From IMG/VR virus record IMGVR_UViG_3300032053_000105, positions 1 through 53,179 of that record: a stretch of DNA of 53,179 bases. One strand, given 5' to 3'. Source of the stretch: a virus. The position numbers and the translations under genes were made by a program. Positions 2,848-27,490 of the stretch are shown here, piece by piece (position 1 is the first letter of the stretch; the number at the start of each line of letters is the position of its first letter). The notes under the pieces were generated by a model. That model was not told the origin of the DNA and did no database searches. It worked only from the letters and a program-made list of their open reading frames with translations.

Positions 2848-3690
2848 ATGACAAGAATCGGAATAATTGGCTTTGGAATGGTAGGTAAAGCGATTGAGTT
2901 TGGTTTTGGTCTAACTCACGAAGTTAAAATCTATGATCCAAAGTATCCTGAATTGGATACGATCAAAGATGTAGTCGAAACAAGTGACTATATTTTTGTA
3001 TCCGTGCCAACACCGATGAAGAAAAATGGCGAAATAAATCTCAAGACTCTGAGTGCGGTAATTGATAATCTGGCTAAAACCATTCCGATAACTCGTCATC
3101 CGGTTATTATCATTAAGTCAACAATCATCCCCGGCACGACTCGAAGATATCAACAGAAGTATTCCTATCTCAAATTTGTCTTTAATCCCGAATTCTTAAC
3201 CGAAAGGAATCACAAGTTAGACTTTATTAACACGGCTCGGATCATACTCGGCGGGGAAAAGGAGATCGTAAATAAGATTGAGAAAGAAGTTTACCGACCG
3301 AGATTCGAACATACACCGATTTTCAAAACTGATTGGGAAACAGCCGAATTTGTTAAATACATGTGTAATACTTTTTTTGCCAATAAAGTCATCTTTATGA
3401 ATGTTATTAGAAAAGCAGTTGACAAATTCAATGAAAGTAATTTGGGTGCAAATATAGATTGGGATATGGCGGTTAAGTGTTTTTTGGCGGATCAGAGAAT
3501 AGGTAATTCTCACTACCAAGTGCCGGGACACGACGGAGATTTTGGTTTCGGCGGAACTTGTTTTCCTAAAGATCTAAACGCTTTTATCTGGTGGCTTAAG
3601 GATCAAGGTTTAAAAGATGAAGCGAATTATTTCAAGAGTGTTTGGAAATTAAATCTTAAATATAGAAAAAACAAGGACTGGGAAAAATGA
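2848..3690 (+). CDS. UDP-glucose/GDP-mannose dehydrogenase-like protein, short form
   Basis: This gene encodes 280 residues. Family members oxidise a nucleotide sugar such as UDP-glucose to its uronic acid with two NAD+. The N-terminal Rossmann motif GFGMVG is at residues 8-13. NPEFLTE and a central KYMCNTFFANK helix follow. The catalytic cysteine is in GGTCFPKD (Cys about 238). Typical enzymes exceed 400 residues; this one stops about 40 residues after the cysteine, so the C-terminal nucleotide-sugar binding domain is missing. It may work as a short variant or with a partner. It overlaps the epimerase gene by ATGA. Confidence 0.85.
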   Translation: MTRIGIIGFGMVGKAIEFGFGLTHEVKIYDPKYPELDTIKDVVETSDYIFVSVPTPMKKNGEINLKTLSAVIDNLAKTIPITRHPVIIIKSTIIPGTTRRYQQKYSYLKFVFNPEFLTERNHKLDFINTARIILGGEKEIVNKIEKEVYRPRFEHTPIFKTDWETAEFVKYMCNTFFANKVIFMNVIRKAVDKFNESNLGANIDWDMAVKCFLADQRIGNSHYQVPGHDGDFGFGGTCFPKDLNAFIWWLKDQGLKDEANYFKSVWKLNLKYRKNKDWEK

Positions 3691-4601
3691 AAACTTTAGT
3701 TACGGGCGGATCGGGTTTTATAGGGAGTCATATTGTTGATAGATTAATCAAAGATGGCCATGAAGTGACTGTGATTGATAATCTTTCGACAGGCAAGTTT
3801 AAAAATTTAGAGAAATCTATTGCTGACATAATTTTTATTAATGGTGATATTAGGGATTTAGATTTACTAATGGACAAATTTAAAGGGATTGATGTAGTCT
3901 TCCACACCGCCGCCAAAGCGAGGGTTCAACCCTCTTTTACCGATCCTTTATTTTACTCGGACAATAATATCGGTGGGACGCTTAATGTCTTATGGGCGGC
4001 GAAGGAGAACAAAGTCAAGAGGGTGGTCTATTCCGCTTCGAGTTCCGCTTATGGTGATCAAGATAAGATGCCTTTAAAAGAAACGATGATCCCGAATCCT
4101 AAATCTCCTTATGCTCTGACAAAGTATGTAGGAGAATTAAATATGAAACTCTGGGCGGATTATTACGGCGTGGAAACTGTGTCTTTGCGTTACTTCAATG
4201 TTTACGGAAAAAGACAGACTGATTTAATTGATGGTGCTTATGCGACTGTAATTGGAGTATTTTTAGGACAAGTAACACAAAAGAAACCAATTACAATCGT
4301 TGGAGATGGGTTTCAAAGGCGTGATTTTACTTATATCGATGACATTACCGAGGCAAATATTAAGGCGGGTATGTCGCAAAATGTAGGTAAAGGTGAAGTT
4401 ATAAATATCGGTTATGGGAAAAATTATTCTATTTTAGAAGTTGCCGATTTAATTGGTGGCAAAGATTATCCTAAAAAGTTTCTGCCAGCGAGAAAAGAAC
4501 CAAAAAATACTCAAGCTGATAATACTTTGTGTCAGAAACTACTCAGCTTTAAACCAGAGATATCTTTAAAAGAAGGATTGAAATGTATAAGCCAGAAATA
4601 A
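3687..4601 (+). CDS. NAD-dependent nucleotide-sugar epimerase/dehydratase
   Basis: This gene encodes 304 residues of the extended short-chain dehydrogenase type (GalE/UDP-glucuronate epimerase-like). TGGSGFIG at residues 6-13 binds NAD. The catalytic Ser lies in SASSSAYG (116-123) and the Tyr/Lys pair is Y142 and K146 in YALTK. The substrate-side motif RYFNVYG follows. It would act on the product of the adjacent dehydrogenase or on a host UDP-sugar. The ATG overlaps the previous stop, so the two are translationally coupled. Confidence 0.9.
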   Translation: MKTLVTGGSGFIGSHIVDRLIKDGHEVTVIDNLSTGKFKNLEKSIADIIFINGDIRDLDLLMDKFKGIDVVFHTAAKARVQPSFTDPLFYSDNNIGGTLNVLWAAKENKVKRVVYSASSSAYGDQDKMPLKETMIPNPKSPYALTKYVGELNMKLWADYYGVETVSLRYFNVYGKRQTDLIDGAYATVIGVFLGQVTQKKPITIVGDGFQRRDFTYIDDITEANIKAGMSQNVGKGEVINIGYGKNYSILEVADLIGGKDYPKKFLPARKEPKNTQADNTLCQKLLSFKPEISLKEGLKCISQK

Positions 4602-5203
4602 GATTAAGTTTTGATGATGCCGGAAGAGATGAAAATGATAGTGACGATATGCAATTAGCAAAGTTATTGAAAAAATACGGATTCGGGAAAGTTGTAACTT
4701 TTTATTGTATGCCATTTCAAAAGGATTTGATTAGGTATTTAGCAAAAGATTTTGAGATCGGTGCTCATACAGTCAATCATCCGCAAGATTTAAAAGAATT
4801 AAGTGGTTGGCAGGTGAAATATGAAATTGAAGAATCAAAGACTTTATTGGAAAAGATTTGTAAACGGACAATTAAATCATTCTGTTATCCAAGAGGACGA
4901 TATGGTAATCGGGAAATCAGATATGTTAAAGGGGCAGGTTTTAATGAAGCAAGAACGACGGTTGTGGGTTGTATTGAGAAGCCGGATAATCCATTTCGGC
5001 TTGACACTTCAGCCCATATCTGCCCGATAAGAAAAGAATATGTAGGCACGACTTGGTTTGATGAAGCGAAGAAGTTATTTGATAAGGTGATGAATGGGGA
5101 AGGTGATTATTACCATTTGTGGTCGCACGGATGGGAAATTAGTAAATATAGCGAATGGGATAATTTAGAGGAGTTTTTATACTATATGAGGAGTAAATTA
5201 TGA
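4583..5203 (+). CDS. Polysaccharide deacetylase, NodB family
   Basis: This gene encodes 206 residues. NodB-type enzymes remove N- or O-acetyl groups from glycans with a divalent metal. Motif 1 is LSFDDAG (D11, D12), the metal His pair is HTVNH (H62, H66), then FCYPRGRYG and the late motif LWSHGWE. There is no signal peptide, so it should act in the cytoplasm on a soluble or lipid-linked sugar. The start, AGGATTGAA-ATG, overlaps the epimerase by 19 bases. A second, divergent deacetylase is at 13272. Confidence 0.85.
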   Translation: MYKPEIRLSFDDAGRDENDSDDMQLAKLLKKYGFGKVVTFYCMPFQKDLIRYLAKDFEIGAHTVNHPQDLKELSGWQVKYEIEESKTLLEKICKRTIKSFCYPRGRYGNREIRYVKGAGFNEARTTVVGCIEKPDNPFRLDTSAHICPIRKEYVGTTWFDEAKKLFDKVMNGEGDYYHLWSHGWEISKYSEWDNLEEFLYYMRSKL

Positions 5204-5334
5204 AAATAGAAGGTGAAAATTGTGGATGTAGTTGTTTAGGTTGTGCATTAGAATTATTTGGATTAGCTTTGGTTATTTATATGCTGACACACTGGGATAA
5301 AGTAATGGGTTTAGTAGAAAGGATTTTTAATTGA
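5200..5334 (+). CDS. Small Cys-rich membrane protein
   Basis: This gene encodes 44 residues, with an ATG overlapping the previous stop (ATGA). CGCSCLGC at residues 8-15 precedes one hydrophobic helix (LELFGLALVIYML). Its end overlaps the TTG start of the next gene. The function is unknown; it resembles the Cys-plus-membrane-helix protein at 13973. Confidence 0.55.
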   Translation: MKIEGENCGCSCLGCALELFGLALVIYMLTHWDKVMGLVERIFN

Positions 5335-6191
5335 AAATCTACATCCCACAACTTTTCAGACAAGGAGTATTTGGAGGGGGTTGGCAATTCAGCCATACCT
5401 TCGCCAAGTTCGCTAAATGGGCGGAGTTCGTTGACGACCCAATGAAAGCGGAAATTTATTTTATTGCTGGTAGTAGCCAAGTTGAAGATAAATACGAACC
5501 CGAAAGAGCCAAAGCCAATGGAGCGAAAATTATACTCCGTATTGACAACGCTTTAAAAAATTCCAATAATCGGGGAACAGGAATGCCGAGAATGAAAAAG
5601 TATTCTGGGCTTGCTGATCTGGTGATTTACCAGTCGCAGTGGGCTCGGGACTATTTGAAACCTTTTACTGAAAAAGATGGTCCCGTTATTTTAAACGGGG
5701 TTGACCAATCAATTTTTAAACCGCCAAAGCAAAGATTAGATAATGTATATCTTTATTCCCGCAGTTCCCGTGATGACCAGAAAGGCTGGCATCGAGCGTG
5801 GTATGAATATCAGATGATCCAAAGAAAAAACCCCAATGCTCAACTATGGATAATAGGAAAATTTAGTAAAGAGAATTTAGAATATAATTTTGATTTTTTC
5901 AATAACGAAAACTGGAAGTATTTAGGTGTTATCAGCAATCAGGAAACAATGGCACAGATTTATCAAGATGCGAGTTATTTACTTTTCACGGCATTTGGGG
6001 ATGCGTGTAGTAATACTTTAATTGAGGCACTGGAAAGCGGAATGCGATTAGTTCCAACTTACGAACTAACTACTGGCGGTTCGCCTGAAATAATGGATTG
6101 CAAAGATTTATCGGCGGAGAGAATGGTAAAAGAATATCACGAGGAGTTTTATGAGTTATTACAAAAACCAGCTGAACGAGTATCTGGCTAA
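5331..6191 (+). CDS. Glycosyltransferase, GT4-like (GT-B fold)
   Basis: This gene encodes 286 residues and starts with TTG, led by AAAGGATTTTTAA. Features typical of retaining GT-B enzymes are the acceptor-side NGVD, and in the C-terminal half GDACSNTLIEALESG, which matches the donor-binding EX7E region. It would transfer a sugar from a nucleotide donor; the acceptor is unknown. The C-terminus overlaps the methyltransferase gene by 41 bases. Confidence 0.8.
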   Translation: MKIYIPQLFRQGVFGGGWQFSHTFAKFAKWAEFVDDPMKAEIYFIAGSSQVEDKYEPERAKANGAKIILRIDNALKNSNNRGTGMPRMKKYSGLADLVIYQSQWARDYLKPFTEKDGPVILNGVDQSIFKPPKQRLDNVYLYSRSSRDDQKGWHRAWYEYQMIQRKNPNAQLWIIGKFSKENLEYNFDFFNNENWKYLGVISNQETMAQIYQDASYLLFTAFGDACSNTLIEALESGMRLVPTYELTTGGSPEIMDCKDLSAERMVKEYHEEFYELLQKPAERVSG

Positions 6192-6744
6192 ATCAGAAGT
6201 AAAGACTGGCAAAGTGCTTGATATTGGAGGATCGGCAGGTTCTGTGAAAGACAAAGTAAAATCATTTAAAGTTGACGAATATCTGATTTTAGATAATAAT
6301 GCAGAAGCCAAATACTGCAAAGATTGGAAACAACCAGATTTATTCTGGGATATGAATAAAGATATCGAGGAATCGTTAGAGTTAAAAGATTACCATAACT
6401 ACTTTGACCAGATATTTATGTTAGAAGTCGCAGAATATTTATACGATCCAATGACTGCTTTTCAAAATATAACGAAACTTTTAAAGCCAGGCGGAGTGTT
6501 AATCTGTTCTGGGCCATTTATTTACCCTTATCACTCGCCAGGAGACATTGATTATATGAGATATACCCTGAAGGGGATTCAAAAATTGATTGAAGAAGCA
6601 GGTTTGACTTTGTGTGCTTTACATAAGAGAGTGGCGAAATATCCGGATGTTTTATCTGATTTTTATATGTTAGAGAAAATGCATCCATTAAAAGGTTCGC
6701 CAGATCACGAAGTCATCGGGTTTATCGTGGAGGCAGTCAAATGA
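6151..6744 (+). CDS. Class I SAM-dependent methyltransferase
   Basis: This gene encodes 197 residues. The SAM-binding motif I is VLDIGGSAGS (about residues 23-32), followed by an acidic strand end (YLILDNNAEA) and KLLKPGGVLICSGPF, which is motif III of the family. It has the size of small-molecule or sugar methyltransferases. It sits between a glycosyltransferase and a membrane protein, so a sugar or lipid-linked glycan substrate is likely but not shown. Confidence 0.8.
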   Translation: MSYYKNQLNEYLAKSEVKTGKVLDIGGSAGSVKDKVKSFKVDEYLILDNNAEAKYCKDWKQPDLFWDMNKDIEESLELKDYHNYFDQIFMLEVAEYLYDPMTAFQNITKLLKPGGVLICSGPFIYPYHSPGDIDYMRYTLKGIQKLIEEAGLTLCALHKRVAKYPDVLSDFYMLEKMHPLKGSPDHEVIGFIVEAVK

Positions 6745-7403
6745 ATATAATTCTTATCGTAGTGGGTTTAATCATATTTGAGATTGTTACCAGCATAGAT
6801 AATGCTATTATTAATGCCGATGTCTTGACTAAAATGCAACCTAAAGCAAGAAAATGGTTTCTGACTTGGGGAATATTTATTGCAGTATTTGTGGTGAGGG
6901 GAGTGTTACCGTTTATACTGATTTATACACTACAATCAAAAATTTTGATAATAGGTGGAGTATTTTTAGTATTATTATTTGCAAGATGGATTATTGAGAA
7001 ACACAAATATTATGAATTTTTAAAGAATAAAGTTAATAAAAGATTCAATATAGATAATGATACCGGAAGAATAGTTTATTTAGAAATTTTAGACGCTTTT
7101 TTCTCAATAGATGGCGTAATAGGAGCATTCGCTTTTACTCTTTCAATACCTTTAATATTAATTGGAAATGGAATAGGTGCGATTGTAGTCAGACAGTTGA
7201 CGATTTATAATATTAGTTTATTAAAACAGTTTGCTTATCTTAAAAATGGAGCTATGTGGGCGATATTATTTCTTGGTTTAATTATGATTCTGGAAGGTAA
7301 TGGACAGAATTTTCCTTATTGGTTTTCGCCTATAATAACTTTCATAATTATTGGAATATTTTTATATAAATCTATTAAAAGAAATAGGAATTATGCGAAT
7401 TAA
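6741..7403 (+). CDS. TerC/DUF475-like integral membrane protein
   Basis: This gene encodes 220 residues with about six or seven hydrophobic segments. Two acidic membrane motifs mark the family: FEIVTSIDNAIINA at the N-terminus and LEILDAFFSIDGVIGAFA in the middle, followed by GIGAIVVRQLTIY and LKNGAMWA. TerC/DUF475 proteins are cellular membrane proteins linked to metal ions (tellurite resistance, manganese export). It is coupled by ATGA to the methyltransferase. Such a protein is very unusual in a phage, and here it sits inside a glycan gene cluster. Confidence 0.75.
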   Translation: MNIILIVVGLIIFEIVTSIDNAIINADVLTKMQPKARKWFLTWGIFIAVFVVRGVLPFILIYTLQSKILIIGGVFLVLLFARWIIEKHKYYEFLKNKVNKRFNIDNDTGRIVYLEILDAFFSIDGVIGAFAFTLSIPLILIGNGIGAIVVRQLTIYNISLLKQFAYLKNGAMWAILFLGLIMILEGNGQNFPYWFSPIITFIIIGIFLYKSIKRNRNYAN

Positions 7404-8436
7404 CATTTTTACAACACTTTCCGATCCTGAAAATAAGCAGTATTTTTGGAAAGAAGCTTTAGAAAACTATTTGGATTTTGCTGATGAGGTTATAGTTGTT
7501 GATGGTATGAATTATAAGGGGAAATGCCAAGATTTCAGTCTTCATGACCAAGATCATGATAAAAAGCATGATAGAGAAGAAACCGCATCAGAAATAAGAT
7601 ATTTATTATATGAAGATTTAGTTATTAAAACACATAAGGATGATGCTTACGATAAATTAAAAATTATTAATTATCCTTGGCCAGAAGAATTTGATTGGAA
7701 ATTTATCGGCGAGCAAATGCAACGAGGTTATGACGCTTGCACTGGTTCGTGGTGCTTGCGACTTGACGCAGATTACCTAATTCACGAAGATGACTTCCAA
7801 GCCATTCGAGACTTTTTAGAACATTGCGACAAACCGATTGCCCGCTTTGCCAAAAAACAATTTCTATTAGCCGATAGATACCGAGTGAAATCACTTTTGC
7901 CGATCGCTTTTAATAAAGGAAAGTTTGGTGATAGAATAAAATTGAATGGTGGTGGTGATTTGTGTCAGCCGACCATTGACGGGCGAGAACCAAGGGGAAA
8001 CGAGGTTGCTCCGATTTACAGACCCAAAATCTTAATAGCGATGGATGATGATACAAAAGAAGTGCAGAAACGAATGCCCGATATATTTGTCAAAAATGGA
8101 ATTACTTATCAAATGGTTGAGAGTATACCGATTTGGAATTATGAGTGTTTATTGAGAACGAAAGAAGTAGAAGCGAAAGAGTTTCATAGATTTGCTAAGG
8201 CTTGGAAGCGAACATTTAAAGAAGACCATTTAGGGGCTACATCAGAAAAGACCGCTTTGAAAAGTTTTATGGATATGCAGTTAGGAAGATTCAAAAATCA
8301 AACTTGGAAAAAGATACCATTAAGTCATCATCCGAAAGTTATACAAGAAACAATTAAAAATTTAAATAAAAACCAGTTCGGGTATTCCTTGTGGGAAAAT
8401 GCCGAACCAGCAAGTTATTTTAAGGAACACAAATGA
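7393..8436 (+). CDS. Glycosyltransferase, GT2-like, paralog 1
   Basis: This gene encodes 347 residues from the ATG at 7393, led by AATAGGAATT; an upstream in-frame ATG at 7351 lies inside the membrane protein gene. The early strand DEVIVVDG and the DxD-type metal motif LRLDADYLIHEDD support a GT-A fold. The C-terminal part (HPKVIQETIKN, then FGYSLW and PASYF) is shared with the proteins at 12469 and 14122, so the three form a local family. The middle carries a long insertion relative to them. Confidence 0.75.
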   Translation: MRINIFTTLSDPENKQYFWKEALENYLDFADEVIVVDGMNYKGKCQDFSLHDQDHDKKHDREETASEIRYLLYEDLVIKTHKDDAYDKLKIINYPWPEEFDWKFIGEQMQRGYDACTGSWCLRLDADYLIHEDDFQAIRDFLEHCDKPIARFAKKQFLLADRYRVKSLLPIAFNKGKFGDRIKLNGGGDLCQPTIDGREPRGNEVAPIYRPKILIAMDDDTKEVQKRMPDIFVKNGITYQMVESIPIWNYECLLRTKEVEAKEFHRFAKAWKRTFKEDHLGATSEKTALKSFMDMQLGRFKNQTWKKIPLSHHPKVIQETIKNLNKNQFGYSLWENAEPASYFKEHK

Positions 8437-9437
8437 AAAATTATTGGCAACTAACGCAAGAATTTTCGACAGTTGGTGACAAAATGCTTCAACATTGCGA
8501 GGTATTAAATAATATTCAGAATAATAAAAAGTGGCGACCAATCACATTTCAGCTTTCACCGACAGGGGTTTGCGATTTTAATTGTCATTTTTGTTCAGTC
8601 GCTAACAGAGATAAAACCTTAATTTTGCCCTTTGAACAGATTGAAAAAGCCTTGAAAGATTTTAAGAGACTCGGGGCGAAAGCATTGGAGATTACAGGTG
8701 GCGGGAATCCGCTTTTATATCCTAAAATAAATGAAGTGATTGATTCGGCATATCAATTAGGCTATGATATTGGCGTGATTTCAAACAGTGTTGAACCTTT
8801 TAAATACCTGACCAGACGATCCGCCGAGCAATTAACTTGGTATCGGGCAAGTTTGAGTGCCTTTGATAATTTCGAGAACTTTAACTGGAAAAGATATAAC
8901 TTTGACGTAATTCCGAAAGGGATATTGGGGTTCTCTTACATCATTAACTCAAAAACGACCGAAGATAAGATCAGAAAGATTTACGAGTTGGTCAAAAGCC
9001 GACCTGATGTTAAGTTTGTGCGGATTGCCCCGAATTGTCTTGAGCCCGATTCAATTAAAACTTTTAAAATAAAATGGCAACCGATTATTGAAAAAATTGA
9101 TGATACGGGCAAATTCTTTTTGAAAGAAATCACCGAAGCCTATTTACCTTATCCTGATTTCTGTGCGGTGGGGATGATACGACCTTATGTCTGTGAAGAT
9201 GGATATATTTATTCTTGTTCAAGTTTCCTACTACGCAAGCGAAGGTTAGAACCTGAATGGCGGATAGGACATATCTCTGATATCAAGGGTATGTATAAAG
9301 AGTGTAATAAACGATATAAAGAAACTGGCAAGCCTTATGATGTGCCGATTGATAAGTGCTTTCATTGTATGCTTCCGAACAATAATAAATTTTTACATAA
9401 TGTTTGTCGAGAGATGAAAGATAAAAACTTTGCATAG
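8433..9437 (+). CDS. Radical SAM protein with SPASM-like C-terminus
   Basis: This gene encodes 334 residues. CDFNCHFC (C47, C51, C54) is the CX3CX2C motif that binds the 4Fe-4S cluster and SAM, and TGGGNPLLYP is the GGE-like strand. The C-terminal third has further cysteines (FCAVG, YVCEDG, YSCSS, KCFHCML, NVCRE) that suggest an auxiliary cluster domain. These enzymes do radical chemistry on peptides, sugars or lipids. Here it is coupled by ATGA to glycosyltransferase paralog 1, so sugar or peptide modification is inferred. Confidence 0.8.
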   Translation: MKNYWQLTQEFSTVGDKMLQHCEVLNNIQNNKKWRPITFQLSPTGVCDFNCHFCSVANRDKTLILPFEQIEKALKDFKRLGAKALEITGGGNPLLYPKINEVIDSAYQLGYDIGVISNSVEPFKYLTRRSAEQLTWYRASLSAFDNFENFNWKRYNFDVIPKGILGFSYIINSKTTEDKIRKIYELVKSRPDVKFVRIAPNCLEPDSIKTFKIKWQPIIEKIDDTGKFFLKEITEAYLPYPDFCAVGMIRPYVCEDGYIYSCSSFLLRKRRLEPEWRIGHISDIKGMYKECNKRYKETGKPYDVPIDKCFHCMLPNNNKFLHNVCREMKDKNFA

Positions 9438-9444
9438 GAGGAAA

Positions 9445-9777: not shown

Positions 9778-9790
9778 AAAAGAGAGATAT

Positions 9791-10054: not shown

Positions 10055-10327
10055 GTGAAACTTATGACCATTGATGATTCAGATACAATTTGTAGCTTAT
10101 GTGACAAGTTGAAAGACACGCCATATAAAAATATAGGCGAAAAGATTAGAGAACTTTCAACTTACGACGAATTTCTAATCGGTGATTGCTTGACTTATTT
10201 GGCAATAAAAGAAGGAACGGAAAAGTTTTGGACTTGGCAAGAATTCAATGGAAACAAAAATGCTGGGATTAGAAACTATGATAATGTAGTCATCAAAAAT
10301 AGAAATAATTGCGGAGTATTAGTATGA
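10055..10327 (+). CDS. Hypothetical protein
   Basis: This gene encodes 90 residues from GTG at 10055, directly after the previous stop, with AAGGAAATTAAG upstream; the in-frame ATG at 10064 is an alternative. Three cysteines (DTICSLCDKL, IGDCL) are present near the N-terminus, with no complete zinc motif. It overlaps the methyltransferase gene by ATGA. Confidence 0.55.
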   Translation: MKLMTIDDSDTICSLCDKLKDTPYKNIGEKIRELSTYDEFLIGDCLTYLAIKEGTEKFWTWQEFNGNKNAGIRNYDNVVIKNRNNCGVLV

Positions 10328-10935
10328 GCGAAATTTACGATCGTGAATACTTTGAAGATGGGATCAAAACTGGCAAATCTGGTTATGAGAATTATCGCTG
10401 GCTTCCTGAAAGAATTTACCGAGAAGTAAGAGCGGTAATTCATTTACTTGGAATTGAGCCAGGTCAATCAGTTTTAGATATAGGTTCAGCCAAAGGTTTT
10501 TGGGTTAAGGGTTTTAGACATTACAATATCGAGGCTTATGGCTTTGATACTTCTGAATATGCTCTTTCACATGCTGATAATGAAGTGAAAAGATACTTAG
10601 TTGATTATTTACCAAACCAAAAGTTTGATTATATTGTTTCCCGAAATACTTTTGAACATATAAAAGAAGACGAATTAAAAGAAATATTTAAAAAATGTCT
10701 TAAAATGACCGATGTAATGTTTTTTACCGTGCCTTTAATTGATCCCAAAACTGGCGATTATATTATGCAAGTTTTAGATACGACCCACGAAATAAAATGG
10801 TCAAATGAGCAGTGGATTCGGTTTTGTGAAGATTGCGGCTGGAAAAATGTAAGGATAATGTTTCAGTTGCCTGGCATTCACGATAAATATAACGAGTATC
10901 CTAACTCAATCGGGTTTTATGTATTAAAGAAATGA
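10324..10935 (+). CDS. Class I SAM-dependent methyltransferase
   Basis: This gene encodes 203 residues from the ATG at 10324. Motif I is SVLDIGSAKGFW (about residues 46-57), then YGFDTSEYA, and the post-motif strand FDYIVSRNTFEHI, typical of Methyltransf_11/23 proteins that act on small molecules or sugars. It belongs to a chain of coupled genes leading to the LicD/TagD pair. Its substrate is not predictable. Confidence 0.8.
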   Translation: MSEIYDREYFEDGIKTGKSGYENYRWLPERIYREVRAVIHLLGIEPGQSVLDIGSAKGFWVKGFRHYNIEAYGFDTSEYALSHADNEVKRYLVDYLPNQKFDYIVSRNTFEHIKEDELKEIFKKCLKMTDVMFFTVPLIDPKTGDYIMQVLDTTHEIKWSNEQWIRFCEDCGWKNVRIMFQLPGIHDKYNEYPNSIGFYVLKK

Positions 10936-13976: not shown

Positions 13977-14125
13977 AAGACGATGAAATGTGTACTGATG
14001 ATTGCCAAACTTGTGGTGGTAGTTTAACTAATAAAGAATGTAAAGAGCGAGCAGGAAATAGTTTGCCTTTATTTTTTCTTTTTATTATATTTTGTATTTA
14101 TATAATTATTCGGAGTATTTTATGA
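13973..14125 (+). CDS. Small Cys-rich membrane protein
   Basis: This gene encodes 50 residues coupled by ATGA. The N-terminal part has CTDDCQTCGG and one more Cys; the C-terminal half is a single hydrophobic helix (FFLFIIFCIYIIIRSIL). It could be a membrane-anchored metal site. No family is recognised; it resembles the protein at 5200. Confidence 0.55.
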   Translation: MKDDEMCTDDCQTCGGSLTNKECKERAGNSLPLFFLFIIFCIYIIIRSIL

Positions 14126-14970
14126 CACTCGGTTGCTATATTTTAATGCAAAATCCAAAAACTAATAACTACCCTTATTTAGAAGTGATAAATTGTTGTT
14201 TAGATTTATTTGATGAGATTCTGATTGTTGATGGCGGGACTGATGATGGTTCGATTGAAGAAATTGATAAAAGATATGAATATTTAGGAGATAAAACTAA
14301 GATACCACATGAAGACAAAGTAAAAATTATTGAGAGATTGTGGTCAGTTAATGCCGATTGGGATTTTTTAACTCAACAATATGACTGCGGGCTTCAAAAT
14401 CTCACGACTGATTGGAGAATGAAAGTTGATGCTGATTTCTTATTTCACGAACACGATTTATGGCAGATAAGAGAGTTCTTATATGGACATAGAGATTATA
14501 GAATAGTTTCATTTGAAAAGGCGGCTTTCAACCTGATTGACCGATACCGCTCTAAGACTAAAGTAGGTTTGGCGGTTAATAAAAAAATGTATCCGAATAT
14601 CCACTGGAACACTGATGACAAATACCAAGATGGCGATGAGGTTTTAGAAGAGGAAACTTGGATACCTTCGGGGATTAAAGTTTATTCTTATGATAATTGT
14701 TTCAAGACAAAGGATAATATCAAAAAGACAATGTATAAATTCGCCAAAGCAGTTTATAAAAAATATGGCAAGAACTGGGGACACGAATCGCCAGAAGCGG
14801 CTTTGAAGTTTTTTATTGATATGGCAAGGACAAGATTTGATGCCCATAATCAAAGCGAGATTCCGTTAGAAGCCCACCCGAAATATATTCAAGAGAAGAT
14901 TAAAAATATGACCGAAGAGCAATTAGGTTTTTCGCTATTCGGTTATAAGAAAGCGAGTTATTTTGCGTAA
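14122..14970 (+). CDS. Glycosyltransferase, GT2-like, paralog 3
   Basis: This gene encodes 282 residues from the ATG at 14122, after CGGAGTATTTT; an in-frame ATG at 14092 lies within the previous gene. DEILIVDGGTDDGS and MKVDADFLFHEHD are the GT-A nucleotide and metal motifs. LIDRYRSKTKVGLAVNK and the C-terminal block HPKYIQEKIKN...QLGFSLF...ASYF align with paralog 1 over most of their lengths. It probably arose by duplication within the island. Confidence 0.8.
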   Translation: MTLGCYILMQNPKTNNYPYLEVINCCLDLFDEILIVDGGTDDGSIEEIDKRYEYLGDKTKIPHEDKVKIIERLWSVNADWDFLTQQYDCGLQNLTTDWRMKVDADFLFHEHDLWQIREFLYGHRDYRIVSFEKAAFNLIDRYRSKTKVGLAVNKKMYPNIHWNTDDKYQDGDEVLEEETWIPSGIKVYSYDNCFKTKDNIKKTMYKFAKAVYKKYGKNWGHESPEAALKFFIDMARTRFDAHNQSEIPLEAHPKYIQEKIKNMTEEQLGFSLFGYKKASYFA

Positions 14971-15529
14971 AATCTTTATCGATGTCGGTTGTGGAAATTG
15001 CGAAGATTTATTGAATTTCTACCACAAGAATAAGGATTATATTTATTATGGGATTGACGCTTCACATGATTATCACCACAAATGGATTGAGTTGGAAAAA
15101 AAATACCCGATTACTTTTATCAACCAAGCGGCCTGGATTAAAGATGGTGAGATAATTTTCTATGATGAGCAGTTAGATAATCCGCAAGGTTCGACTTTGA
15201 TTAAAGAGAAAAAAGGCATTGGGAATATGGAAGCAATTTGGGTAAAAGGATTTGATTTTAGCGAATGGCTTAAACAATTCAAAGATGATTATGTAATTTT
15301 ATTTATAGATATTGAAGGGGCAGAATATGATGTCTTGAATAAAATGTTCGAAGACGGAACTATCTCAATTCCAAAAAAGATATTCTACGAAGGACACGCT
15401 CATAAAGTTTATAATGATAGGATAAAAGAATTAGCCTTACAAGTTGAAAAGAAGTTAGAGAAAATTAGACATTGGAAAATAGGCAGTGATGAAGTAATAG
15501 ATACTGAATATTTTGGAGAAAAAAAATGA
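14963..15529 (+). CDS. FkbM-family methyltransferase
   Basis: This gene encodes 188 residues from TTG at 14963, overlapping the previous gene by 8 bases. FIDVGCGNCEDLL is motif I near the N-terminus, and ILFIDIEGAEYDVLNKM is the FkbM signature. FkbM enzymes O-methylate sugars and polyketides and are frequent in glycan clusters. A sugar hydroxyl on the phage-made glycan is the likely target. Confidence 0.85.
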   Translation: MRKIFIDVGCGNCEDLLNFYHKNKDYIYYGIDASHDYHHKWIELEKKYPITFINQAAWIKDGEIIFYDEQLDNPQGSTLIKEKKGIGNMEAIWVKGFDFSEWLKQFKDDYVILFIDIEGAEYDVLNKMFEDGTISIPKKIFYEGHAHKVYNDRIKELALQVEKKLEKIRHWKIGSDEVIDTEYFGEKK

Positions 15530-16614
15530 AAATAATCAAAAATCCCAAAATTGAAATTATGCCCGAACGAGGCAAGCATTGTTTTATAGGTAAGATAGAA
15601 AATGATACCTATCGGATTTTTGATGTGATAAATGCCGATGAGTTGACCGAAGAATGGATGGATAAAAACTTCCATTGGGGTGATTATCCTTCCGAAAATA
15701 AACCTTATCACGGTTGGGCGGGATTGAAAGAAGCGACCATAATTCAGAACATCTGTTGGTATCACGGATTAGCTCCGAGAGTTTACGAGATAGTCGGGAT
15801 TGAGACTGAAGGCAAAAAGTGGTTTGCTCAAAGGATTGAGGATATAAGTAGCTTGTCTTATGTGAATGAACATAAAGATGCCGAACCGATTTATAAGGCA
15901 GTTAAAAAGTTAGGTGAAACTTATGGTTTCCACACTGAGAAGGATGATGTTTCAAGGCGAGATGTAATGGGCGGAAAATTGGTTGATTTTAATACCTTTC
16001 ACTTTACTGATGACTATAGAGAAAAAGTAATGGCGATTGTTAGAGATAAGGGTCATTATGGTAAGACCGTATATCAAGATGAGCCCAAATTGGATATTAT
16101 TAGCACACCAAGAAAAACCGCCCATAGGATTAAGGTAATGAAATTAGATAAGATAGATTTTGCGAACAAAATTGTGTTAGATTTAGGTGCAGCAACAGGC
16201 GGGTTTTGTCGATATGCTAAAGATAGGGGAGCTGGTAGGGTTTTTGGTATAGATTTTGAGGATGTGATAGGGACAGATACTCGGTTAGCCGCTTATCTGA
16301 TTAGTTGGGAGTTAGGATATTTTGATATAGAGTTTGTTCAGCTTGATTTAAGAAATAATTTTAGATTAGAAAGAGGCGAAAAAGCCGATATAGTTTTCTT
16401 TTTATCGATGTCCTTTCACATAGGAATCCCCGATTGGCTTGGTGAAATTACTGAAGAACTTTTAATCTTTGAAGAGAACTCAAGAGGATTTAAAGAAAAT
16501 CCCGAAGTTACTAAAAATACAATAGCAAAATTGGAAACTATGTTTAAAAGGGTCGAGTTAGTTGGTTATAGCCGAGACCGAGAACCACAACCGATATTTT
16601 GGTGCTGGAAATGA
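15526..16614 (+). CDS. Two-domain protein with C-terminal methyltransferase
   Basis: This gene encodes 362 residues. The C-terminal half has a class I methyltransferase core: IVLDLGAATGGFCRYAKDRG with FGIDFED, in the style of FtsJ-like enzymes. The N-terminal 180 residues are not assigned; LAPRVYEIVGIETEGK and MGGKLVDFNTFHF loosely resemble the end of a kinase-like fold, but no ATP loop is clear. Substrate unknown. It is coupled by ATGA to the FkbM gene. Confidence 0.65.
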   Translation: MKIIKNPKIEIMPERGKHCFIGKIENDTYRIFDVINADELTEEWMDKNFHWGDYPSENKPYHGWAGLKEATIIQNICWYHGLAPRVYEIVGIETEGKKWFAQRIEDISSLSYVNEHKDAEPIYKAVKKLGETYGFHTEKDDVSRRDVMGGKLVDFNTFHFTDDYREKVMAIVRDKGHYGKTVYQDEPKLDIISTPRKTAHRIKVMKLDKIDFANKIVLDLGAATGGFCRYAKDRGAGRVFGIDFEDVIGTDTRLAAYLISWELGYFDIEFVQLDLRNNFRLERGEKADIVFFLSMSFHIGIPDWLGEITEELLIFEENSRGFKENPEVTKNTIAKLETMFKRVELVGYSRDREPQPIFWCWK

Positions 16615-16835
16615 TGCGAATAAACTTAAAGAAATATACTGAATGTTGTATTAATGGACATAAATTTGATGGAATTCCACCGAGAAAAAATTTATATAAC
16701 ATTAAAGGAAAATTAATCGGTATGACATCTTTTTGTACTAATTGTTTTTTAGACCATCCAGATTTTTATTTTCCTTTTAAAGAATGGAAAAAATCTAAAT
16801 ATTTTACAAATATACATAAAGGGAGTTTAATTTGA
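16611..16835 (+). CDS. Small Cys-containing protein
   Basis: This gene encodes 74 residues from the ATG at 16611, overlapping the previous gene by ATGA. ECCINGHKFDG and FCTNCFLDH could bind a metal through Cys/His. The rest is basic and aromatic. No family is recognised. Confidence 0.5.
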   Translation: MMRINLKKYTECCINGHKFDGIPPRKNLYNIKGKLIGMTSFCTNCFLDHPDFYFPFKEWKKSKYFTNIHKGSLI

Positions 16836-17407
16836 AACCAAAAAACTGGTGGAAAAATAATTCAGAAACTTGGCTTAAAAAGATGGCAAGTTGGGAAAAA
16901 CAAGAAAAAGGAAATTCAAGGCATTTTGAAGATGAGAAAATGTTTTTGATAACAAGAATTAACCATATTATGTGGCACGATGAAAAGCTAAAAAAAGTTT
17001 TAGAAGTTGGAGCTGGTAACGGAAGGATTATTGGCTGGATTGATGCTGATCGTTCTTCAATAGATATTAATCCAGAATTATCAGCTTATGTAAAAAAGCA
17101 TTATCCAGAAATTAAAACCTTAGTCGGTGAAATAATAGATTTACCCTTTAAAGATAAATCATTTGATTTGGTTTATACCCACGAAGTTTTACAGCATATT
17201 GAACCAAGTGAAATTGATAAAGCTTGTTCGGAATTAAAGCGAGTAGGAAAGGAAGTTTGGACTTTGGAAAACTGGCGAGATAAAGAAATAGACCAAAAAG
17301 TTTCCGATGCTCACGGCGGGAGATGGAACTGGGACTTGAAAAAATACTTTAATGTCTATTATGAGTTTTATACGGATTGGGGACAGATGTTCCTAAAATC
17401 AAAATGA
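16832..17407 (+). CDS. Class I SAM-dependent methyltransferase
   Basis: This gene encodes 191 residues from TTG at 16832, led by GGGAG. Motif I is VLEVGAGNGRI, then SSIDINPE, then DLPFKDKSFDLVYTHEVLQHI, the usual Methyltransf_11 pattern. A basic Trp/Lys-rich N-terminus (MKPKNWWKNN) precedes the domain. It overlaps the next glycosyltransferase-like gene by ATGA. Confidence 0.8.
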   Translation: MKPKNWWKNNSETWLKKMASWEKQEKGNSRHFEDEKMFLITRINHIMWHDEKLKKVLEVGAGNGRIIGWIDADRSSIDINPELSAYVKKHYPEIKTLVGEIIDLPFKDKSFDLVYTHEVLQHIEPSEIDKACSELKRVGKEVWTLENWRDKEIDQKVSDAHGGRWNWDLKKYFNVYYEFYTDWGQMFLKSK

Positions 17408-18354
17408 GTTATAAATGTGTAGTTAAGTTGGCGGACGCTTATCGTTCTGAGTCAAGACGAAATACACTTGCTTCATCAAGGGTTAGGGGTCATTGGCTTT
17501 CAAAATACTGGAAAGAATGTGATGATAACTTTTATCCATCTGATTATAACTGGAAAGGCAATGATTTCTTTTCAATAAAGACGCAACTTGACAATTTAGA
17601 ACCATATGATGTAATAATAATGAATAAGACTTATGAAGCGGAATTGGTTAAACGATTAAGGGAACGAGGACAGAAGGTTATTCTTGATTTATGCGACCCT
17701 GATTGGCAAGAGCCGTATTACTCTGATAAAAATCGAAAGCGAAAATGTTTGGAGACAATGAAGGAAGTTAATGTTTTAGTGATAAATGGTATTGAAATGT
17801 ATCAGTCAGTTAAAAAAATGTTTCCTAAAAAACCGATTTACATTATTCCTGATAGGATTGATCTTGACTGGCACAAACCCCGAAAACAAATTCACAACAA
17901 AGAACTTAAGAATATTTGCTGGTATGGTTATTCGGCAAATCTGGTAACGCTTGAACCTTACATAAAAGATATAATAGATATGGGACTTCAACTGACAGTT
18001 ATCTCGGATAAGTTTTTTGAAAATTTAATCTTATTAGGAGTAAAAAATCCAAGAGAGTTTATCTCGTTTAAAAAATGGGATTTAAAAACGATAAATGAAT
18101 TGATAGTTGAACAAGACTGCGTTTTTCTCGGCGATAAACTGACAAAGTGGAAATCAAATAACAGAATGCTTACCGCTTGGGCTTTAAGAATGCCCGTAGC
18201 CAAAAATATAAAAGACTTAAAGAAGTTAGTAAATATTGATGAACGAATTAAAAATGCCAGTCAAGGTTTTGAAATGGTTAAAGAAAAATTTGATATAAAA
18301 GAGAGCGTAGAAAATTATAAACAACTTATTTGGAAAGAATGGAGAATGAAATGA
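17404..18354 (+). CDS. Glycosyltransferase-like protein (CDPDW family), copy 1
   Basis: This gene encodes 316 residues from the ATG at 17404. It is related to the protein at 21867: both have RNTLASSRVRGHW or the like, then a Rossmann strand ending in CDPDW, then PIYIIPDRID, then a middle WYGYSAN-type segment and a late KSNNR...AWALRMPVA block. The last block resembles the donor site of GT-B enzymes. No strong ribosome site is seen, so coupling to the methyltransferase is likely. Confidence 0.65.
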   Translation: MSYKCVVKLADAYRSESRRNTLASSRVRGHWLSKYWKECDDNFYPSDYNWKGNDFFSIKTQLDNLEPYDVIIMNKTYEAELVKRLRERGQKVILDLCDPDWQEPYYSDKNRKRKCLETMKEVNVLVINGIEMYQSVKKMFPKKPIYIIPDRIDLDWHKPRKQIHNKELKNICWYGYSANLVTLEPYIKDIIDMGLQLTVISDKFFENLILLGVKNPREFISFKKWDLKTINELIVEQDCVFLGDKLTKWKSNNRMLTAWALRMPVAKNIKDLKKLVNIDERIKNASQGFEMVKEKFDIKESVENYKQLIWKEWRMK

Positions 18355-18560
18355 ATCAATATTTAAAGATTATTATTAGCGGAGTACAACTGGCAGTTAT
18401 GGGTATTTTTACATTTTTATTTTATAAACTTTTACTTGGTGATAAAATTTGCTGGTATGAAAACAGCCAGATAATTGCTGGTATAGAACTTACGCTTTTT
18501 GGGATAGTGACTATATTTACTCTAATACAATTTATTAAGTCAGTTGGAGGTAAAAAGTGA
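18351..18560 (+). CDS. Small two-helix membrane protein
   Basis: This gene encodes 69 residues from the ATG at 18351, with GGAGAATGA upstream and an ATGA overlap. Two hydrophobic helices (about residues 4-24 and 38-58) are joined by a polar loop. No family is recognised. It sits between glycosyltransferases, so a role in membrane steps of glycan handling is possible. Confidence 0.55.
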   Translation: MNQYLKIIISGVQLAVMGIFTFLFYKLLLGDKICWYENSQIIAGIELTLFGIVTIFTLIQFIKSVGGKK

Positions 18561-20110
18561 AGAACATTTTAATTGTTTGTGACAAAGAAAATTCAGCGAT
18601 CTGGCGTATGGCAAAAGGCGTTGAAGCGAACCTGCCTCATCTAAGTATTCGAGTGATTGCAGTTCATCCTAAACGACCCGACCCAGACCAACTCAATGCC
18701 TATCTTGACGGCGTTCAATGGGCGGATGTTTGCGATTATCAATATTGGAAAACAGCTCTTATGTTATTAGAAAAATATCCGAATAACAAACCCAAAATTC
18801 TTCAGCATCACAATCCCTACAATTTACACGAAAGCGACTGGAAACAATTTGATAAAGTAGTGGTTAATAATAAAACAATGCAAAATGATCTCAAAGGTTC
18901 GGTTCTTATCGGCAATGCGATCGATCTCAATGTTTTTAAATACCAACGGGAATATCCCGAAGATTCAAAAACAATTATTATGGTGGCAGCAAGGATTGAA
19001 AGTAAAAAAGGGATATTGGAAGTAGCTCAAGTTTGTAAAGATTTAGGTTATAAACTTTTACTGGTCGGTTCAATCTCCGACCCTGATTATTTCAACAAAG
19101 TAATGACAACTGGAGTGGTTGATTTTCGGGAAAAAATTTCCGATGGGGAATTGGTTAAATGCTATCACCAGTCGGCTTTACATATTTGTAATTCGGTGGA
19201 TGATTTTGAATCCGGGACAAATCCGATTTTAGAGGCGATGGCAACCGGCGTGCCTGTAATTACTCGCAGAGTGGGGCATGTGCCAGATTTATTTAATGGT
19301 TTTAATATGGTGGTAAGAAAAGGGCAACTAGATGATATTAGTGATTTAAAAACCGAAATAATAAATTTAATGAATGATTTACCAAGACGAAAAGATATGC
19401 GAGAGAATGCTTGGAAAACTGCCAAAACGAGGGGAAATTGGCGAAGGGCGATTGAATATGAAAAATTATACTGGAAAGTATTCGCTCCTTTTAAGGAATT
19501 GGTATCGATCATTATTCCCACTTTTAATCGTAAAGAATTATTGGCAAAGGTTTTAGAAGGTTGTTTATTACAAGACTGGGAGGCGAGAGAGATTATTATT
19601 TGCGATGACGGATCGTGGGATGGGACAAGGGAGATGGTAATGCTTTTGAATTCTCAATCAAAAATACCGATTAAATATATCAATACGGGTTTAAAAGATA
19701 AATATGGTTTAGCACAGGCAAGGAATCAGGGGATTATCGAAGCGGGTGGAAACATTTTAGTTTTCTTGGATGACAGATACTATCCCGAACCACGATTAAT
19801 AAGTGAGTTTCTCCAAAAATTAAAACCAAAAGTCTGGCTTTATGGCAATAAGGGCAAGAAAAAAGATTTTGTCGAGAATGTTAGTTGTTGTTATCGGGAA
19901 GATATAATCAAGGCAGGAATGTTTAATTCTTCCGTTCAGCTTTATGGTTTTCAAACACAGGAACTCAAAAGCAGATTCAAGTCTCAAGGCTGGAAATTTG
20001 AATATGTTGAAAATGCAAAAGTTAAAACACTTTCAACTACTAAAAGTAAATATACTAAAAAAGAAGAAATAAGGGTTTCGAAGGACTTGTTATGGAAACT
20101 CGGCTTATAA
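18557..20110 (+). CDS. Fused glycosyltransferase, GT4-like plus GT2-like
   Basis: This gene encodes 517 residues from GTG behind GGAGG. Residues 1-310 form a GT-B module (VAARIESKKGILEVAQVC, then GTNPILEAMATGVPVITR with the EX7E region). Residues 315-517 form a GT-A module (VSIIIPTFNRKELL, ICDDGSWDGT, LAQARNQGI, VFLDDRYYPEP). Two transferases of different folds on one chain suggest stepwise addition of two sugars to one acceptor. Confidence 0.85.
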   Translation: MKNILIVCDKENSAIWRMAKGVEANLPHLSIRVIAVHPKRPDPDQLNAYLDGVQWADVCDYQYWKTALMLLEKYPNNKPKILQHHNPYNLHESDWKQFDKVVVNNKTMQNDLKGSVLIGNAIDLNVFKYQREYPEDSKTIIMVAARIESKKGILEVAQVCKDLGYKLLLVGSISDPDYFNKVMTTGVVDFREKISDGELVKCYHQSALHICNSVDDFESGTNPILEAMATGVPVITRRVGHVPDLFNGFNMVVRKGQLDDISDLKTEIINLMNDLPRRKDMRENAWKTAKTRGNWRRAIEYEKLYWKVFAPFKELVSIIIPTFNRKELLAKVLEGCLLQDWEAREIIICDDGSWDGTREMVMLLNSQSKIPIKYINTGLKDKYGLAQARNQGIIEAGGNILVFLDDRYYPEPRLISEFLQKLKPKVWLYGNKGKKKDFVENVSCCYREDIIKAGMFNSSVQLYGFQTQELKSRFKSQGWKFEYVENAKVKTLSTTKSKYTKKEEIRVSKDLLWKLGL

Positions 20111-20340: not shown

Positions 20341-20388
20341 TAATAAATTAAAAGAAAGGAAATCCAATGGATAATGAAAGGAAAACAC

Positions 20389-20436: not shown

Positions 20437-20498
20437 ACTAACATGTATCCCACAATGAAACTTTAACTCATATTCCGAATACGGAATGGTATTATATT

Positions 20499-21656
20499 AT
20501 GAACTTTATCCGAAAACCATGGCAATATAACGCCCGACCGCTCCCTAAAAATGTTCGTTATATCCCTTATTACGAACCGGGAAAATATGATCTGGCTATC
20601 TTACATATTGACCAACAAGCAATAGACCCGATGATTGGTAAAGGAAAGTTGTATCGGCATTTGAATGAAGCGATAAAGGATATTCCAAAGATAGTTATTA
20701 ATCACGGCACACCCGACTGGCCCGAAAGATGGGAATCGGCAGGTAGTTGGTGTTGGAAAATGCCATTAGAAGTTGAGAAAGCAGGTAGTAAAGCGATTAA
20801 AGTCTATCAGAGGGATTTTCTGATCGAAGGAGGTCAGACAATCCAAAAAGATGAATTGGTAGAAATTGAAGGTCTTAAAAAACTGATTGGTAATAATACG
20901 ATGGTAGTCAATTCGTTTGAAGCGGCTAAACAATGGGGATTTGGGATTCCGATTTGGCACGGAATTAATCCTGATGATTGGTTTTATAAATTACCAAAAG
21001 AACCGAGATCTGTAATTGTTATGGGGCCAGCGGGACTCGATCATTATTATGGTAGATTTTTACTCAATGATACCAAATCTAAACTGCGAGATAATTATGG
21101 TCTAAGATTAATTCAGATTGGTGAACCACACGAATGGACAATCCAAAAACATAGAAGATTTAGTAGCGGAGAATGGGACGGATTCAGGGCTTATCGTGAT
21201 TATCTTGGCAGAAGTTTAATTTATGTTAATCTTACTCAAGAATCGCCAATGCCGAGAGGTAGAACAGAAGCAATGCTTTCTGGACTTTGCACTTTGACTA
21301 CTCCTTTTCAGGATGCGGATAAATTTATTAACTGTGATACCAGATTAATATGGAAAAATGTTGAAGGTATAGGCGAGTATATTAAAGTGATTGATGAATT
21401 GATTATAACTCAAAAAGATATTAACGGGTTTATTATACCGAACAACCCTTTGCCTATAGCGGCATTAGTGAATCATCTGATTTATAAAAGATATAATGAG
21501 GCAGTTAGGATTGGTCTGAACGGCCGTAAAACTGCTAAAAAGTTATTTAATCCCGATCGTTACAATTCTGAATGGACAGATTTGTTAAATCGGGTTATAA
21601 AGGAGTTTCATGACCAAAGAAGTAAAACTGACAAGAGCCCAGTTAAGACGGCTTAA
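20499..21656 (+). CDS. Glycosyltransferase-like protein, GT-B type
   Basis: This gene encodes 385 residues. Features are a first half with a short Rossmann-like strand set (YDLAILHIDQQ, IVINHGTPDWPE), and a second half with SVIVMGPAGL, QIGEPHEW, and SPMPRGRTEAMLSGL, the last resembling the conserved acidic donor region of GT-B enzymes. It follows the hairpin region, and no clear Shine-Dalgarno site is present; the palindrome at 20472-20487 occupies that place. Confidence 0.7.
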   Translation: MNFIRKPWQYNARPLPKNVRYIPYYEPGKYDLAILHIDQQAIDPMIGKGKLYRHLNEAIKDIPKIVINHGTPDWPERWESAGSWCWKMPLEVEKAGSKAIKVYQRDFLIEGGQTIQKDELVEIEGLKKLIGNNTMVVNSFEAAKQWGFGIPIWHGINPDDWFYKLPKEPRSVIVMGPAGLDHYYGRFLLNDTKSKLRDNYGLRLIQIGEPHEWTIQKHRRFSSGEWDGFRAYRDYLGRSLIYVNLTQESPMPRGRTEAMLSGLCTLTTPFQDADKFINCDTRLIWKNVEGIGEYIKVIDELIITQKDINGFIIPNNPLPIAALVNHLIYKRYNEAVRIGLNGRKTAKKLFNPDRYNSEWTDLLNRVIKEFHDQRSKTDKSPVKTA

Positions 21657-21870
21657 TAAAGAATTAAAAAACGCCAAAGTGAGAACCGAGATTACAGAAG
21701 CCTGTGAGCATAAAGAGTTAGAACAATTAGTTGAAAAGAATTCTTGGTATCAATGCAAGAATCCAAAATGCAGAGTTATCTTTTTCCTAAATAATATGCC
21801 AGGTTGGAGTCCTTCTGGTCTTATAAATCTATTGGCAAGTTTGGCAAAACATGTCAAGGAGAAAATATGA
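21610..21870 (+). CDS. Small Cys-containing protein
   Basis: This gene encodes 86 residues, with AAAGGAGTTTC upstream and a 47-base overlap with the previous gene. A basic helical N-terminus (RAQLRRLNKELKNAK) precedes CEHKELEQL and WYQCKNPKC, which together could make a Cys/His metal site. The C-terminal helix is amphipathic. Function unknown. Confidence 0.55.
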   Translation: MTKEVKLTRAQLRRLNKELKNAKVRTEITEACEHKELEQLVEKNSWYQCKNPKCRVIFFLNNMPGWSPSGLINLLASLAKHVKEKI

Positions 21871-22736
21871 AAGAAAATATTGAAGGTGCTTTCATTTTGC
21901 ATGAAAATGTACACGGAAAAAGAGATTTAGCATCTTCTCGAATTAGAGGAAGATGGATAATAAAATATTGGCCGGGTGTAGAAGAATATGTAAGTGGTCG
22001 TAAGTATAAATTTTTAATTTATCAAAAAGCCTATCTGGTTGAAATGGCGAAAATGTTTGACGGCATAAAGATATTTGATATCTGTGATCCGGATTGGGTA
22101 AACCAAGAATTAGTAATCGAGATGATCGAGGTTTGTGATGCGGTTACTTGTTCGTCTCCTGCGCTTCAAGAGTATCTTTCAAGGATTACCAAAAAGCCCG
22201 TCTATTATATCCCTGACAGAATAGATATGGAATATGTCGGTAGAAGGAAAAAAATTCACAGAGGACAAGCAAGAGAGGTAGTCTGGTTTGGATATTCGCA
22301 CAATTCCCATACTTTAAAATCAGCTGTTTATGCTCTCAAAAGATATAAATTAGGACTTTCAATTATTACTGAGAATATGAAAACCATTACTGCTTATAGT
22401 AGTTCGCCAGATGAAAGACGAATACCAGAACGCTGGACGAAGTGGGATTTAAATACATTTTGCGATGAGGTTTTGAAATCTGATATTTGTATAATGCCAG
22501 GCAGTTTAAGGGCAAATGATAGGTTTAAATCTAATAATAAAACCACTTTAGCTTGGGCTTTAGGACTGCCAGTGGCGACCGATGCCGATGATCTTAAAAG
22601 ATTCTTAGACCCTAAAGTAAGGCAAGAAGAAGCGGATAAGAGATATAAGGAAGTGAGGGAACTTTATGATGTTAAAACTTCTATAAAAGAAATGCAGAAA
22701 ATAATTGAGGATATAAAAAATGATTCAATTATCTAA
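21867..22736 (+). CDS. Glycosyltransferase-like protein (CDPDW family), copy 2
   Basis: This gene encodes 289 residues from the ATG at 21867, after CAAGGAGAAA, coupled by ATGA. KRDLASSRIRGRWIIKYW, ICDPDW, VYYIPDRID, WFGYSHNS and KSNNKTTLAWALGLPVATD align in order with the protein at 17404. The pair is a divergent GT-B-like family duplicated in the island. The donor and acceptor are unknown. Confidence 0.7.
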   Translation: MKENIEGAFILHENVHGKRDLASSRIRGRWIIKYWPGVEEYVSGRKYKFLIYQKAYLVEMAKMFDGIKIFDICDPDWVNQELVIEMIEVCDAVTCSSPALQEYLSRITKKPVYYIPDRIDMEYVGRRKKIHRGQAREVVWFGYSHNSHTLKSAVYALKRYKLGLSIITENMKTITAYSSSPDERRIPERWTKWDLNTFCDEVLKSDICIMPGSLRANDRFKSNNKTTLAWALGLPVATDADDLKRFLDPKVRQEEADKRYKEVRELYDVKTSIKEMQKIIEDIKNDSII

Positions 22737-26126: not shown

Positions 26127-26139
26127 GTTAAAAGGAAAT

Positions 26140-27489: not shown

Positions 27490-27490
27490 T

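Follow-up and report, generated by a model that had tools for sequence, protein, structure and literature searches.

Virus-encoded glycosylation and the locus

Some viruses glycosylate their own particles. According to PMC12363180, which cites Freeman 2023, the capsid and tail tube of mycobacteriophages (Che8, Corndog, Myrna) are glycosylated by the phages' own glycosyltransferases (GTs). Chloroviruses such as PBCV-1 bring most of the machinery themselves and make their capsid glycans in the cytoplasm; these glycans share a core, their outer sugars differ from virus to virus, and a methyltransferase is a proposed capping enzyme (PMC5408694). The window analysed here is the whole stretch of 53,179 nucleotides of the IMG/VR virus record IMGVR_UViG_3300032053_000105. 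Its positions 2848-22736 hold a one-strand (+) series of about 29 open reading frames (ORFs), mostly overlapping and with few gaps, in which sugar enzymes predominate. The cassette recurs more generally than a view of the window alone would suggest, and the chances are about even that the mechanism proposed from its genes, a variant of phage-encoded glycosylation, is right.

The window shares with the mycobacteriophages the phage-encoded GTs in a tailed phage, and the virion as acceptor is a proposed parallel. It differs from them in scale: as far as that source describes them, they have one or a few GTs, whereas the window has nine GT proteins together with sugar-nucleotide, deacetylase and methyltransferase genes in a fixed order. 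PBCV-1 is a eukaryotic nucleocytoplasmic large DNA virus; the window, in contrast, belongs to a tailed phage with a contiguous cassette beside the packaging genes. Chlorovirus glycosylation relies on other GT families encoded by scattered genes. Adjacent radical SAM-like and methyltransferase genes, as well as GTs, also occur in the sugar/heptose clusters of cyanophages and pelagiphages (SynMITS9220M01, HTVC008M), and the radical SAM gene at 8433 and the methyltransferase gene at 10309 match such an adjacent pair in a cyanophage. Those genomes, however, are far larger, carry a heptose pathway and gave no match to the cassette glycosyltransferases GTe and GTd. Searches of open-access papers for clusters of phage GT genes, for glycosylated virions and for sugar genes linked to a terminase gave no description of the cassette; an earlier description in subscription papers is possible.

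We propose, at about even odds, that the enzymes of the cassette work in the cytoplasm and build a methylated glycan onto a virion protein, with a core that stays constant and a decoration that varies. The virion is favoured because the cassette has a fixed place in the packaging and capsid gene run, because its core GTs co-vary with the portal protein, and because it lacks export or lipid-carrier machinery.

A conserved cassette beside the virion genes

The core of the cassette comprises six genes in the window:

4583..5203, +, NodB-type polysaccharide deacetylase (PF01522, Polysacc_deac_1, 5.5e-15)
5331..6191, +, GTa, GT4-like glycosyltransferase (PF13692; 26 loci)
6151..6744, +, MTa, class I S-adenosylmethionine (SAM) methyltransferase (PF13489/PF08241; 35 loci)
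18557..20110, +, GT4:2, two-domain GT4-GT2 glycosyltransferase (PF00535 1e-19, PF00534 1e-13; 57 loci)
20499..21656, +, GTe, glycosyltransferase with a GT4-type C-terminal half (no Pfam, no PHROG; HepE/PglA/TarM in the PDB by profile; 64 loci)
21804..22736, +, GTd, GT-B glycosyltransferase by AlphaFold model and Foldseek (65 loci)

Scans of IMG/VR returned 66 contigs with GTe and 20 with GTd, 68 non-redundant contigs in total. Their common order is (UGDH)(EPI) NodB-GTa-MTa-variable-GT4:2-GTe-GTd-(ParB)-TerS/TerL-portal-protease-capsid, where UGDH and EPI are a nucleotide-sugar dehydrogenase and an epimerase. All core genes checked (378/378) lie on one strand. NodB precedes GTa in 21/21 cases, GTa precedes MTa in 26/26, MTa precedes GT4:2 in 31/34, GT4:2 precedes GTe in 48/52, GTe precedes GTd in 62/62 and GTd precedes the portal gene in 54/54; the distance from the end of GTd to the portal gene is 125-680 bp in 28 of these 54 contigs. 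Chance is ruled out by the Pfam E-values and by the order conserved in the 68 contigs. As the contigs had been selected via GTe or GTd, the test was repeated starting from the portal. Of the 23 new contigs that extend 3 kb or more upstream, 13 carry GTd, and of the 13 that extend 6 kb or more, 8 do. The link between GTd and the portal is strong, short of universal. Distances of the core GTs track portal distances (GTe rho 0.75, GTd rho 0.85; 0/300 permutations); those of MTa and GTa do so less (rho 0.42 and 0.34).

The predicted fold of GTd is GT-B (AlphaFold pLDDT, the predicted local distance difference test, 89.5), with Foldseek matches to 7qsg, PimA and SdgB of the GT4 type and a further resemblance to GTs of phages and archaeal viruses. 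GTe, GTd and GTa had no tblastn match at E 1e-5 in 50,697 phage records, from which records very near the window were possibly excluded. Outside already known phage contigs, GTd had none at E 1e-25 among 381 and 295 genomes of two Patescibacteria classes and 296 genomes of the phylum of a Nitrospirae metagenome-assembled genome (MAG). Matches to GTe in 159 of 380 Patescibacteria genomes were rejected as family members, being mostly short C-terminal GT4 matches; the full protein occurred only in G006, the genome with the prophage described below. On sequence comparison, the GTe and GTd families appear restricted to viruses, and they are usable as markers for this phage group. The earlier note had spoken of an island, a misleading label for a syntenic, apparently virus-restricted cassette that is no local acquisition.

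A scan of IMG/VR with KMT, a methyltransferase fusion protein of the window, gave three relatives, one of them 80% identical, with the same order from GTc to GTd and a different terminase. Searches of IMG/VR with the terminase large subunit found no relatives and with the radical SAM enzyme nothing, nor did megablast of the region against phage records.

The middle of the cassette varies. Across 50 cassettes, the ORFs that belong to no recurrent family number 126 and form 55 clusters, whose representatives include methyltransferases, GT2, GT1, radical SAM/SPASM, NTP_transferase, DegT aminotransferase and cytidylyltransferase proteins. The radical SAM, LicD, TagD-like and TerC genes of the window are window-specific or rare among the loci. 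In one relative (L005:3938-6508), a MoxR-like AAA ATPase and a DUF2201 VWA/metallopeptidase form a pair within the cassette middle, and similar-looking ORFs are found at L004:13359-16016.

Enzymes encoded in the window

The remaining genes of the series and the virion genes beyond it are as follows:

2848..3690, +, UGDH, short nucleotide-sugar (UDP-glucose type) 6-dehydrogenase (PF03721/PF00984, UDPG_MGDP_dh E 3e-18; NCBIfam NDP-sugDHase below cut-off; homologues in 22 loci)
3687..4601, +, EPI, nucleoside diphosphate (NDP)-sugar epimerase, nearest to the WbgU/WbpP/TviC type (PF01370 2e-59; PDB phmmer WbgU 4e-56, wbpP 1e-50; best NCBIfam TviC)
6741..7403, +, TerC/DUF475-family membrane protein (PF04332 2.8e-35, PF03741)
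7351..8436, +, GT2-like glycosyltransferase paralogue (no Pfam; aligns with 14092 and 12469; 18 loci)
8433..9437, +, radical SAM enzyme (PF04055 7e-11)
10309..10935, +, MTb, SAM methyltransferase (PF13489 1.6e-12)
10932..11552, +, GTc, glycosyltransferase-like by sequence resemblance alone (no Pfam; homologue in L002)
11534..12115, +, LicD-family phosphotransferase (PF04991 2.6e-9)
12087..12479, +, nucleotidyltransferase of TagD/RfaE-II type (PF01467, CTP_transf_like, 5.8e-15)
12469..13275, +, GT2-like glycosyltransferase paralogue (no Pfam; homologue in L002, 68% identical)
13272..13976, +, probable second polysaccharide deacetylase
14092..14970, +, GT2 glycosyltransferase paralogue (PF00535 0.004, sub-threshold; paralogue alignment)
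14963..15529, +, FkbM-family methyltransferase (PF05050 1.7e-5; TIGR01444 above cut-off)
15526..16614, +, KMT, N-terminal domain of no known family fused to a SAM methyltransferase (FtsJ/methyltransferase Pfam; 13 loci; AlphaFold pLDDT 86; methyltransferase fold matched in the PDB)
16832..17407, +, MTc, SAM methyltransferase (PF08241 4.5e-15)
17377..18354, +, GTd1, GTd paralogue (paralogue alignments)
22720..23313, +, ParB-like protein at the cassette end (NCBIfam Noc 1e-3, below cut-off; PADLOC MTase_II N-terminal part; 19 loci)
23313..24173, +, TAGT-family glycosyltransferase, possibly a DNA base GT, outside the conserved core (PF20691 4e-34)
24166..25855, +, putative small terminase subunit, by position only, and terminase large subunit (TerL; PF03237 1.8e-8)
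26125..28645, +, prohead protease (PF04586) and major capsid protein (27491-28645), the latter by position and family conservation
37040..39667, +, portal-MuF fusion (PF04860 9e-64, PF04233 2e-20)

From 2848 to 25855, 29 of 32 gene junctions overlap or abut. The series runs beyond 22736 through the ParB-like and TAGT genes up to the terminase, so the right edge drawn in the earlier note is a naming boundary only. Promoter and terminator scans came near shuffled expectation and were uninformative.

The enzymes comprise a nucleotide-sugar dehydrogenase, an epimerase, a NodB-type deacetylase and a weak second one, nine GT proteins, five methyltransferases, a radical SAM enzyme, LicD and a TagD/RfaE-like nucleotidyltransferase. 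This content agrees with the claim of the earlier note that the genes could build, decorate and methylate a glycan. Pfam bears out its sugar dehydrogenase, epimerase, radical SAM enzyme and several methyltransferases, with ORFs and coordinates as it described. Of its two deacetylases, the first is secured by Pfam; the second has no Pfam match and is recognised by NCBIfam PdaB at E 7e-4. LicD likewise holds at Pfam level, and its partner is tentatively TagD, since NCBIfam RfaE domain II scores slightly better (5e-21 against 1e-18 for TagD) and both lie below cut-off. The estimate of about eight transferases becomes nine GT proteins. Six of them (7351, 10932, 12469, 17377, 20499 and 21804) lack a Pfam match and were assigned by profile, fold or paralogy, 10932 by resemblance only; a seventh is sub-threshold. 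The siphovirus assignment is supported by TerL, an HK97-type protease and portal-MuF in Pfam, and by head-tail adaptor, tape measure and Dit proteins in PHROGs.

The dehydrogenase retains the GGTCFPKD motif and is missing the usual C-terminal UDP-binding domain. Its homologues of 267-295 amino acids in L005, L007, L013 and L073 are also without this domain. The TerC/DUF475 protein occurs in the window only, with no homologue in the other cassette loci, and its role is unexplained. KMT is at most a speculative candidate for a WbdD-type kinase-methyltransferase chain terminator. Its methyltransferase domain is closer to generic methyltransferases than to WbdD; a PDB search with the N-terminal domain gave no match, and the order of strands and helices in the model is only reminiscent of a kinase N-lobe. 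A teichoic-acid pathway based on TagD and LicD found no support past the family level.

Proposed assembly and acceptor of a glycan

In the proposed pathway, soluble enzymes would produce activated sugars, the dehydrogenase and the WbpP/TviC-like epimerase yielding a uronic or N-acetylhexosaminuronic NDP-sugar. The constant GT set (GTa, GT4:2, GTe and GTd) would work in the cytoplasm and assemble a core oligosaccharide on a structural protein of the phage, for which the capsid protein, the portal and the product of 40181-43345 are candidates. LicD and the nucleotidyltransferase may add a phospho-substituent, the deacetylase and methyltransferases may trim and cap the glycan, and the variable middle genes would supply a phage-specific outer decoration. 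The benefit would probably be an altered particle surface that changes adsorption or shields the particle. That the enzymes serve a single product, which sugars it contains and that a virion protein receives it are likewise parts of the proposal.

Several points weigh against this proposal. LicD and NodB families mostly act on envelope polymers. Synteny and co-variation constitute linkage and no proof of function, and vertical inheritance alone could yield both. Of the 23 portal relatives that extend 3 kb or more upstream, 10 have no GTd there, which makes GTd dispensable for that virion type. A collagen-like or threonine-rich acceptor was sought next to the portal, where the proteins are too varied to name one. 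The phage could make use of a flippase and a lipid carrier of its host. Phage virion glycosylation, as far as it is known and as PMC12363180 describes it, involves few GTs.

The earlier note had left three acceptors open, namely the virion, the phage DNA and a host surface polymer. Comparative evidence now favours the virion, weakens the host surface and disfavours DNA for the core cassette. Alteration of a host surface polymer through the host lipid-carrier and flippase pathway, with masked receptors, exclusion of superinfecting phages or a change in adhesion as the outcome, is rather unlikely. It would accord with the NodB, LicD and epimerase families, which are typical of envelope polysaccharide loci, with the likeness of the radical SAM and methyltransferase pair to that of the cyanophage cluster, with the location of one cassette inside a prophage and with the interpretation of Patescibacteria phage sugar genes as surface-modification auxiliary metabolic genes (PMC12911398). 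GtrABC O-antigen conversion prophages also drive a sugar change, and PHROG calls the GT2 half of GT4:2 GtrB-like. The cassette, however, has many soluble GTs and no multi-transmembrane GtrA or Gtr protein. When about 720 cassette ORFs were scanned for hydrophobic segments, no membrane protein resembling a flippase, a polymerase, GtrA or a phosphoglycosyltransferase was found; nine ORFs have at least two hydrophobic segments, and all are short except the TerC protein of the window, the only large membrane protein. This lack of export-type membrane proteins argues against a self-contained surface-polymer locus of the Wzx/Wzy or ABC type, for which the flippase, polymerase and initiating phosphoglycosyltransferase might be supplied by the host. 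The cassette moreover lies within the structural gene run, outside any region of lysogeny genes or morons, and co-variation links its GTs to the portal.

That the glycan serves to hypermodify a base of the phage DNA, as a defence against restriction or CRISPR, is improbable. A gene of the TET-associated glycosyltransferase family (TAGT), the family of TET/JBP-associated DNA glycosylation, adjoins the cassette of the window; together with the ParB-like gene it directly follows the cassette there and in G009/L005, G009 being the nearest long relative. Only 3 of the 14 records examined contain TAGT, however, for which reason it was rejected as a core member. With working controls, a thymidylate synthase homologue was not found in any of ten records, among them the window and G009, both of them apparently complete genomes; a Tet_JBP search, which had no positive control, gave no match. 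A long GT series with a deacetylase is unlike known base glycosylation. That the genes yield several small compounds instead of one glycan (a modified lipid, a sugar compound for secretion or a radical SAM-tailored peptide) is less probable still, for although the middle differs strongly among phages and its radical SAM, LicD, TagD-like and TerC genes are sporadic, the core GT set is jointly conserved in fixed order, and no peptide-precursor or synthase gene was noticed. This leaves the virion as the proposed acceptor, and the position of the cassette makes it the most natural one.

Hosts and distribution

The cassette was found in four MAG contigs, assigned to Saccharibacteria, Nitrospirae, Magasanikbacteria and Cloacimonadota by binning, which may err. 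In the Magasanikbacteria, a 78.5-kb contig joins the cassette phage (L092, G006:C48:44303-77600) to genes read from sequence as chromosomal (ATP synthase, mreB, lysS, serS, ftsQ-like), with a tRNA-Gly at the right edge of the prophage; a tyrosine integrase was not found on this contig. The joined chromosomal genes and the tRNA-Gly make it very probable that at least one cassette phage is a prophage of Patescibacteria (Magasanikbacteria).

Tentatively, a widespread and undescribed class of tailed phages, some of them in Patescibacteria, might make a complex methylated glycan of constant core and hypervariable decoration wholly in the cytoplasm and put it on their particles, a parallel among bacterial viruses to the way chloroviruses glycosylate their capsids. 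If so, glycan coating would be a standing property of a whole uncultivated phage group, not an occasional trait, and sugar genes recorded by surveys as host-directed auxiliary metabolic genes would be parts of a virion programme. The results suggest that at least this cassette is better treated as part of such a programme than as the host-surface genes of the PMC12911398 survey.

Genome ends and neighbouring features

The ends of the window (1-125 and 53033-53157) form an imperfect 147-nt repeat with an in-frame join across it, which suggests a circular assembly opened inside a gene with internal repeats. The two ends of G009 (51,794 bp) share an exact repeat of 121 bp. Judged from their ends, both are probably complete circular assemblies. 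A tyrosine integrase was not found at Pfam level in either. The portal-MuF fusion lies behind the tail genes in the window (37040-39667) and in G009 (48319-50832), which is unusual; in most relatives the portal directly follows the cassette. Three HNH endonuclease ORFs lie in the small-gene region of the window (48998-49480, 49651-49998 and 52437-52871). In an 86-kb contig (L004:3-3214), ORFs that read as TROVE-like, TerD-like and cation-exchanger-like adjoin the cassette.

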